A stretch of 44,951 nucleotides of DNA from positions 1-44,951 of the forward strand of contig JAIDCC010000040.1 in the NCBI GenBank assembly GCA_029056055.1, in the 5' to 3' direction. The notes beneath the pieces are model-generated. The model had not been told where the DNA came from, ran no database searches, and worked only from the letters and a program-made list of their open reading frames with translations. Shown piece after piece: positions 15,191 through 44,951 of the stretch. Origin of the DNA: Duncaniella sp. (lineage in GTDB: Bacteria; Bacteroidota; Bacteroidia; Bacteroidales; Muribaculaceae). The position numbers and the translations under genes were made by a program. Each line of letters begins with the position of its first letter. Positions within the stretch are counted from its first letter, which is position 1.

Positions 15191-15350
15191 CGTTTTTCTC
15201 ACCATGCTTGAATTATCCCATCCGAGCCATAATGATTGCCCAACGTCCCTCAAATCATGCACACCCCTTCACGCTTAAGCAATATTCATACCTTTCAGGA
15301 TTGTGTCGCACGACGAGGTAACACCCTGTCTCTCAGGTAGGGACGCACCA

Positions 15351-15453
15351 CAATGCTGTTTACTTAAGGGTTTTAAGATATAATCTTGGCCCTATTAATC
15401 AACTATTTAGTATTATGAGTTTCGGGAATGAAAAGCTTAAGTAAACAGCATTG
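15351..15453 (+). mobile_element. MITE copy 1 (103 bp)
   Basis: Terminal inverted repeats CAATGCTGTTTACTTAAG (15351-15368) and its exact reverse complement (15436-15453). Flanked by the 10-bp direct repeat GGACGCACCA (15341-15350 and 15454-15463). AT-rich interior, no coding capacity. A second copy lies at 15767. Confidence 0.85.
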
Positions 15454-15766
15454 GGACGCACCATGGCGCGTCCGCAGAGACGTAGGCACAGCGATAAGGA
15501 AAATCCGACAGGAACGGCGTGGGCGATGCCGGGCGCTTCACCGCGACACCTCCGAGTGTCGGGCGACAACAAAGCGCGACGTAAAAATATCACCTAACGT
15601 GCTGTGCATGAGAAACGTGCCGAAGGCACGTCCGTACATGGTCGCGGATTTTATAGCCCGTTTTAATCTTCGGACGGATTGAATGATGCGTCCACGCAGA
15701 TTCACGACGTCGAATTCCCCCCCGGTCGCCGTGGCATCGTCGCCGCGGACGCGCCATGGCGCGTCC

Positions 15767-15869
15767 CAATGCTGTTTACTTAAGCTTTTAATTCCCGAAA
15801 CTCATAATACTAAATCGTTGATTAATAGGAGCAATTTTATATCGTAAAATCCTTAAGTAAACAGCATTG
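15767..15869 (-). mobile_element. MITE copy 2 (103 bp, opposite orientation)
   Basis: Same length and the same 18-bp terminal repeats as the copy at 15351, about 90 percent identical inside when read on the minus strand (for example shared ATTCCCGAAACTCATAATAC). Flanked by the 10-bp direct repeat TGGCGCGTCC (15757-15766 and 15870-15879). It sits in the other palindromic end of D. Confidence 0.85.
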
Positions 15870-15902
15870 TGGCGCGTCCCTACCTGATTTTCAATCTTTT
15901 AC

Positions 15903-16004
15903 CTTGCATCGCGGCACATCCCCGGAGGGGATGAATTGCAAAGCCCCACGAATTCATTCGTGGGGACAACGGCCTCATTCTCAATAACATCCCTGAAGGG
16001 GATG
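15903..16004. repeat. Hairpin cluster next to D copy 1 (module 'E')
   Basis: Three palindromes in 100 bp: TTGCA...TGCAA enclosing CATCCCC-gga-GGGGATG (15904-15940), CCCCACGAAT-tc-ATTCGTGGGG (15944-15965), and CATCCC-tgaag-GGGATG (15988-16004). The CATCCCC/GGGGATG hairpin next to a D end recurs at 44905, which marks this as a repeat family resembling REP/BIME sequences. Confidence 0.6.
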
Positions 16005-16292
16005 AATATCCCCGGCGCGTAGGAAGCAATTTCTCGACGCCTCTCTAATTATAGTTCATGACAATTCTTTTGAGGGCGGGTAAGGTCCGGCGTGCGTTCA
16101 TGTTAGCTAAGAATTAGCTATTGACACACAGGGATATAAGAAAAGTGGCTATTCGCCTTGTTATATATATATATTCATCAGCTAAACAAAACGAATGCCA
16201 CATGGATACTTTAACAACAATCCTCGACTCGATTTGGTTTAAAGACGATCAAAATATTTCGCACAAAAGGGGGTGCGGGAGTGAGAGGGGAA
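16005..16292. other. Gap between repeat block and miaB
   Basis: AT-rich, no convincing gene. TAGCTAA-gaa-TTAGCTA (16104-16120) is a perfect 7-bp inverted repeat that could be an operator or hairpin. A short plus-strand frame from 16204 (MDTLTTILDSIWF) runs into the miaB 3' end and lacks support. No terminator for miaB is evident. Confidence 0.4.
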
Positions 16293-26355: not shown

Positions 26356-26435
26356 GCGCAATGCGGTTCAAACAGAGGATTGAGGAAGAACCGTATCGCA
26401 TGGAAGGGATTATTGCGCTGTAATCGTCTGATTTG
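26356..26435. repeat. Module 'E' in front of D copy 2
   Basis: GCGCAAT (26356-26362) pairs with ATTGCGC (26412-26418). The segment shares GCAATGCGGTTCAAA, AGAGGATTGA and GCGCTGTAAT with 44875-44946, again immediately before CAGGT. The inner part differs between copies while the outer stem is kept. Confidence 0.6.
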
Positions 26436-26812
26436 CAGGTAGGGACGCGCCATGGCGCGTCCGCGGCGACGTTGCCACGGCCACCGGGGATAATTCGAAG
26501 TCGAGGGTCTGCGTGGACGCATCATTCAATACGTCAGAAGATGAAAACGGGCGGAAAAATACGCGACCATGTACGGACGTGCCTTCGGCACGTTTCTAAT
26601 GCACAGCACGTTAGGTGATATTTTCCCGTTGCGATTTGTTATCGCCTGACACGCGGGGTTGTCGCGGTGAGGCGCCCGGCCTATCCAACATGCCGAAGGC
26701 ATGTCCGTACATGGTCCCGATGGTTTTCGCGGTAAAGCGCCCGGTATCGCCCAAGCCGTTCCTGTCGCATTTTCCTTGTCGCTGTGCCTACGTCCCTACT
26801 TGAGGGACAGAC
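26436..26812. repeat. Dispersed repeat 'D', copy 2
   Basis: Starts CAGGTAGGGACGCGCCATGG. It contains GGACGCGCCATGGCGCGTCC, TGCGTGGACGCATCATTCAAT, ACCATGTACGGACGTGCC, TTCGGCACG and GCACAGCACGTTAGGTGATAT, all found in the same order in the reverse complement of 15454-15766. It has an extra segment of roughly 80 bp with a second hairpin (ATGCC-gaa-GGCAT at about 26689-26701) and lacks the right-hand palindrome, ending CCTACGTCCCTACTTG. No credible gene. Confidence 0.75.
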
Positions 26813-44874: not shown

Positions 44875-44951
44875 CGCAATGCGGTTCAAATAGAGGATTG
44901 ACCACATCCCCTTCGGGGATGCATTGCGCTGTAATTGCCTGATTAGCAGGT
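44875..44951. repeat. Module 'E' and the first bases of a third 'D' copy
   Basis: CGCAATGC (44875-44882) pairs with GCATTGCG (44921-44928) around CATCCCC-ttc-GGGGATG (44905-44921). Similar to 26356-26435, and like it followed by CAGGT (44947-44951), where the window ends. A D copy probably continues beyond. Between 44793 and 44874 I see nothing else. Confidence 0.55.

Follow-up and report, generated by a model that had tools for sequence, protein, structure and literature searches.

REP-like palindromes of a Duncaniella genome and the inverted-repeat elements that carry and target them

GTAG repeats have been reported from Proteobacteria, Cyanobacteria, Chloroflexi and PVC, and CGTC repeats were named for Bacteroidetes (Di Nocera et al. 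2013, PMC3733652). REPINs consist of two inverted REPs whose spacing is often nearly constant (Bertels and Rainey 2011, PMC3116915). Insertion sequences are also known to use REPs as targets (Tobes and Pareja 2006, PMC1525189), and in Coxiella burnetii QMITE2, a MITE with a GTAG REP, is struck by IS1111 through that REP (PMC10969869). These statements, and the comparisons made below, refer to the accessible portions of the four publications. Neither MITEs inserting into a REP of their own nor REPs of Muribaculaceae were found described in the open-licence literature searched, itself accessible in part.

Here we describe two palindromic units, A and B, from a draft genome of Duncaniella sp. (2,875,599 bp, 129 contigs, 99.78% complete). 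They are like GTAG-REPs in being extragenic, in occurring in tens of copies, in forming outward-tagged dimers and in the GTAG that flanks a short hairpin on one side, and in unit B two bases separate tag and stem, as described for GTAG-1 and GTAG-2; unlike in GTAG-REPs, B is mostly tagged with GTAC, and a search of the genome for a Y1 transposase found none (PMC3733652). With REPINs they share the arrangement in inverted pairs of near-constant spacer (52-53 bp for A, 63-64 bp for B). In contrast to REPINs, no RAYT was found here, and A pairs also travel in an inverted-repeat element that makes 10-bp duplications (PMC3116915).

Repeat D and its mosaic structure

The window, i.e. the whole stretch of DNA analysed, is the entire contig C65 (44,951 bp). 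A sequence-only reading had singled out in it a repeat, D, with palindromic ends. The observation holds and the repeat system is bigger than originally noticed: used as query, the 553-bp D gave 135 match rows in its own genome, strands and part-matches being counted separately. D reads as a mosaic of A and B units with insertions of an element termed M1. A further element, E, lies beside its second copy. The features are as follows.

15334..15886, no strand assigned: D copy 1, an inverted pair of units A whose spacer holds one unit B, with M1 inside each palindrome
15337..15350, plus strand: outer half of the left unit A, made up of the GTAG tag and GGACGCACCA, the 10-bp stretch that M1 duplicated
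15351..15453, no strand assigned: M1 in the left palindrome of D copy 1, 103 bp, ends CAATGCTGTTTACTTAAG, 10-bp duplication GGACGCACCA
15454..15473, no strand assigned: left palindrome GGACGCACCATGGCGCGTCC of D copy 1
15615..15639, minus strand: unit B hairpin of D copy 1, ATGTACGG-ACGTGCC-TTC-GGCACGT as read on the minus strand
15747..15766, no strand assigned: right palindrome GGACGCGCCATGGCGCGTCC of D copy 1
15767..15869, no strand assigned: second M1 of D copy 1, 103 bp, 10-bp duplication TGGCGCGTCC
15870..15883, minus strand: outer half of the right unit A, TGGCGCGTCC and CTAC (the GTAG tag of the minus strand)
26359..26438, plus strand: arm of an E element (terminus CAATGCGGTTCAAAC) running into unit A of D copy 2
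26436..26799, minus strand: D copy 2, inverted, with the palindrome retained at 26443-26462 only
26569..26593, plus strand: unit B hairpin of D copy 2
26688..26712, minus strand: second unit B hairpin of D copy 2, stem ACATGCC/GGCATGT
44877..44951, plus strand: arm of an E element, then CAGGT, at the contig end

The length of about 327 bp claimed for D without its MITEs (15334-15886) was borne out: D copy 1 measures 553 bp, and 327 bp are left when two 103-bp M1 and one 10-bp duplication for each are subtracted. These "MITEs" are M1, and both duplicated 10 bp of palindrome. Long inverted ends bearing the palindrome are a property of copy 1, where the left palindrome (GGACGCACCATGGCGCGTCC) has one mismatch and the right one (GGACGCGCCATGGCGCGTCC) is exact. 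As had been read, copy 2 has the inverse orientation and begins at 26436, but its palindrome is present at the low-coordinate end only (26443-26462); it is gone from the far end (26792-26799, GTAGGGAC on the minus strand), which leaves this copy without long inverted ends. Of a third copy suspected at the window edge, the final CAGGT fits the start of the element, and the rest proved to be an E-element arm with its terminus at 44877. The hairpin seen in the core next to GTCCGTACATGG is real and corresponds to unit B. No duplication was seen around D, and neither an empty site nor a duplication was found for D or B.

The sequence to the right of D (15870-16049 of the window) is itself repeated, with 94% identity at C11:24875-25054, and includes two hairpins, CATCCCCGGAGGGGATG and CCCCACGAATTCATTCGTGGGG, the second of which has exact 26-27-bp matches in the same-genus genome G023. 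This sequence is followed (16050-16268) by a copy, 91% identical, of an IS 5' end, comprising lead sequence and first transposase codons. Its match to DDE_Tnp_1 is below the Pfam cut-off, and a longer version at C110:5896-6769 appears to split a B hairpin.

Organization and distribution of units A and B

In unit A, GTAG precedes GGACGCGCCATGGCGCGTCC; the outward tail of the unit is conserved and often reads TGATTNGCAG. Unit B consists of ATGTACGG, the stem ACGTGCC, a loop TTC or TTT, and the stem GGCACGT. D had been read as carried in several copies. Counted over the genome, the A palindrome occurs 88 times at no more than one mismatch and the backwards-read control pattern 0 times, which is far above chance. 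Repeat loci fetched from the genome contain 87 A units, 84 B units, 58 E termini and 22 M termini. The GTAG tag is present in 76 A units. The tag of B is GTAC in 79/84 units of this genome; among 25 units of relatives it is GTAG in 14, GTAC in 10 and GTAT in 1.

Both units are mostly arranged in inverted doublets with a short spacer. Neighbouring A units no more than 500 bp apart have their tags outward in 21/27 cases, with a spacer of 52 or 53 bp in 13 of these 21. For B neighbours no more than 120 bp apart, the corresponding numbers are 31/35 and, for a spacer of 63 or 64 bp, 19/31. At two loci (L159 and L161) the B pair is of another type, its spacer being 97 bp long and its interior a different one, CACCTCGAC-GGGGTAATTTACAATTC; B pairs with spacers of 97-98 bp number five in total. 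The repeats are highly reiterated and extragenic, one of 70 arrays lying inside an ORF as called by a crude caller. Judged by these sequences, A, with GTAG beside a short palindrome, and B, which differs in its mostly GTAC tag, both resemble REP/REPIN repeats.

We examined the distribution of the repeats in other genomes. Exact matches to the tagged palindrome in named genomes comprise 27 stretches, 18 of them titled Muribaculaceae, Porphyromonadaceae, Bacteroides or Bacteroidales and 9 from other groups. Among 19 stretches from relatives, picked because they matched, 15 have B-like units, one (G033) has A-type palindromes and three have neither. B-like units occur in the same-genus genomes G002, G011 and G024 and in the same-family genome G029; G002 and G011 also have outward-tagged pairs of them, and G002 has both GTAG and GTAC. 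B is the wider family. G033, of the same family, has the exact tagged palindrome arrayed in tandem (L219, G033:C30:9000-10500) at steps of 137 to 169 bp, where it alternates with a related unit on the other strand, such as GTAGGGACGCGACATGTCGCGTCA. With at most seven candidate places scored per genome, the 370-bp D core was matched in 8/101 genomes, and in the 100 relatives the matches span 23 to 49 bp; at this depth, D as a whole is seen in this genome only.

Inspection of the two window loci in relatives gave no readable empty site, since gene order differs at both. The neighbours of D copy 1 (a TilS-like and a radical-SAM/TRAM gene) are adjacent in G004, G021 and G022 but arranged differently. 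Those of copy 2 are separated by tens of kb or more, or occupy different contigs, in every one of the 26 same-genus relatives for which both were listed. In 13 stretches of relatives adjoining these neighbour genes (two of them overlapping), no A, B, E or M1 motif was found. Empty and filled sites are best compared within the genome itself.

Insertion of M1 and E into the A palindrome

M1 and E are inverted-repeat elements with the ends CAATGCTGTTTACTTAAG and CAATGCGGTTCAAAT, respectively. M1 is 103 bp long. E exists in forms of 103 bp, of 278 bp carrying A-52-A, and longer (414 bp at C70; 443 bp at C21, equal to 330 bp without its M1 and duplication). As in MITEs, the 103- and 278-bp units of M1 and E are short and have inverted termini and a target duplication. 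IS4-type insertion sequences and their MITEs are bounded by inverted ends and duplicate about 10 bp. E and M1 are similar to them in both respects, and it is by ends and duplications that they are known here. Among 20 paired M1 or E elements, the 10-bp duplication is perfect in 14, contains one or two mismatches in four and at least seven in two. For E pairs (n=12) it is perfect in seven, with one or two mismatches in three and non-matching as read in two; at one of the latter, on C21, the flanks agree over 9 bp if shifted by one base.

M1 is biased to the A palindrome. Termini of M1 type, searched genome-wide at up to 2 mismatches, number 22, and 20 of them abut 10 bp within 2 mismatches of A; in a random comparison, 123 of 5000 10-mers of the window match A equally well. 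The remaining two termini are both ends of a single copy on C4. Seven of eight two-ended M1 copies have perfect 10-bp duplications, all in A, and the C4 copy has one mismatch. For E, 40 of 53 ends lie in A, a proportion biased upward by the choice of loci matching A, B, E or M1. With up to 2 mismatches allowed, the sequence joining palindrome and E end has 45 matches in this genome and 0, 1 or 2 in each of 117 other genomes; its reversed control has one match in each of two relatives.

Two loci in particular illustrate the movement of E. One 278-bp E (C125:54493-54770), complete with its A pair, is located at a non-A site with TCCACTGTCC on both sides as a perfect 10-bp duplication, and therefore E and A moved there as one unit. 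A long hairpin is predicted for one strand of this element as DNA (z-score -11.9), since its arms are inverted. At C8:224-789, one 278-bp E is found inside the palindrome of another with CGCCATGGCG duplicated. The host E without insert and one duplication is identical to the inverted insert at 278/278 positions; two other 278-bp E copies differ at 15 and 20 positions. The nest represents a self-insertion of recent date, provided that this locus is correctly assembled: the draft is broken at these repeats, and a misassembly of this locus could produce the same picture. At C70, two E elements have a single CGCCATGGCG in common between them. Two tandem E arms, each after a unit A, were also observed at C124:1-330 (L232), as another nesting of E in A. 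As in the case of REPs struck by insertion sequences, a palindromic REP-like unit is thus the preferred insertion site of mobile elements; what differs is that the inserting E carries the target palindrome itself, and that miniature as well as longer elements use the palindrome here (PMC1525189). While the element entering QMITE2 is another IS, E inserts into its own kind (PMC10969869).

The M1 terminus also occurs with other interiors, running into contig ends at C9, C16, C53, C110 and C125. One interior is common to the last four of these, and that of C9 occurs once. The longer elements at these five contig ends are probably the two ends of a parent IS broken by the assembly. No parent IS with E termini was found, and a plasmid search with one IS end gave no match. 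In viral contigs no exact match to the B interior or the tagged palindrome was found; there is one exact match to the M1 terminus, with a different interior in the 56 bases beyond it. On 56 contigs chosen as repeat-bearing, 36 of 112 contig ends lie within 400 bp of a unit, and the A, B, E and M1 repeats are a likely cause of the positions of assembly breaks.

Origin and spread of the repeats

The suggestion that D is a non-autonomous element stands in part. An A pair travels inside a 278-bp element whose 10-bp duplications are exact, and A and B have REP-like tags and paired organization; D itself is a mosaic, with no duplication around it, and not a simple mobile unit with palindromes as terminal repeats. 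The other suggestion, a structured intergenic RNA family, has become very improbable. The hairpins are strong and the interior CACCTAACGTGCTGTGCATGAG is conserved in B pairs, but a double change was found in just one of 27 consensus base pairs of 20 aligned B pairs, and at Rfam gathering thresholds the window contained only tRNA-Gln. Copies of D are mosaics broken by M1, and relatives match the core over the short lengths given above. In the B stem, one of seven pairs exceeds shuffles, solely once related genomes are added: this pair (G-C versus A-T) is formed in 27 of 30 distinct B units from own and related genomes, compared with a maximum of 25 in 500 shuffles. In the own genome alone, no B stem pair exceeds shuffles. 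This weak covariation shows that the palindrome is kept and is not a proof of RNA. It is likewise unlikely that the palindromes are bidirectional transcription terminators or stabilizers of mRNA 3' ends retained for that role. Both D copies do lie between convergent genes, copy 1 between a TilS-like gene with tRNA-Gln and the radical-SAM/TRAM gene, copy 2 between a phosphoesterase and a P-type ATPase gene. Of 70 arrays, however, 36 are unclassified and one is inside an ORF, and the others comprise 13 codirectional, 11 convergent and 9 divergent ones. No clear bias emerges from this census, made with a crude ORF caller that misread both window arrays.

A realistic possibility, to which we give slightly less than even credence, is that A and B are ordinary REPINs, i.e. 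hairpin-forming REP pairs, moved by a RAYT, a single-strand transposase that has since been lost or is unassembled, E and M1 having merely inserted into them. The tags beside the hairpins (GTAG on 76 A units, GTAC on 79/84 B units) and the dominance of outward-tagged pairs (21/27 for A, 31/35 for B) are what such a history would leave; GTAG-tagged B-like units are found in four relatives (G002, G011, G024, G029), in pairs in G002 and G011. Moreover, 56 of 87 A units are without an E terminus within 110 bp outward, and therefore E does not account for all spread of A. As for the RAYT, Y1_Tnp (PF01797) had no match in this draft genome, where a RAYT gene may be unassembled. A wider search found a Y1 match in 92/148 genomes; 10 of these proteins, all from relatives, were compared with IS200 and RAYT models. 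All 10 pass the IS200 cut-off and none the RAYT cut-off, eight matching the RAYT model weakly. No A- or B-type hairpins were present at 26 scanned Y1 loci of relatives, and a rough custom HMM, built partly from wrong-frame ORFs, detected no Y1 protein in the own-genome loci or in the 27 named-genome stretches. Further evidence against a RAYT comes from C125, where the 278-bp E brought A into a new site and 10 bp were duplicated. To our knowledge, such a duplication is not expected of a RAYT.

We consider it likely that A and B form a REP-like mosaic in which A pairs are the cargo of a transposase-dependent MITE, E, that inserts into this same palindrome. A and B are mostly inverted pairs with tags outward, and A pairs would have become cargo of E. 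We infer that E is mobilized in trans by an IS transposase, most likely of DDE type, that duplicates 10 bp of its target. Both E and M1, the latter presumably through the same or related machinery, insert into the A palindrome. As E carries two A palindromes, each insertion would deliver new target sites, and duplication of CGCCATGGCG would place a copy of the target core on either side of the insert. Nested arrays of E in E and M1 in A across the genome would be the outcome, because an inserted E brings A palindromes and the duplication preserves the target core. Whether this amounts to an autocatalytic mobile element seems to us evenly balanced: E may have captured the palindrome that its transposition machinery prefers, so that each insertion supplies two palindromes and duplicates the target core, the cargo aiding the spread of E. 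Self-nesting arrays would then be built by E, M1 and the parent IS, and REP-like pairs would be spread by a duplication-making transposase and not by a RAYT.

Transport as cargo of a MITE, together with insertion into the same palindrome, gives in this genome a concrete second route by which REP-like sequences would spread without a RAYT. The self-insertion of identical E copies points to recent activity, and the genome represents a natural set of filled and empty sites for studies of palindrome-targeted transposition.
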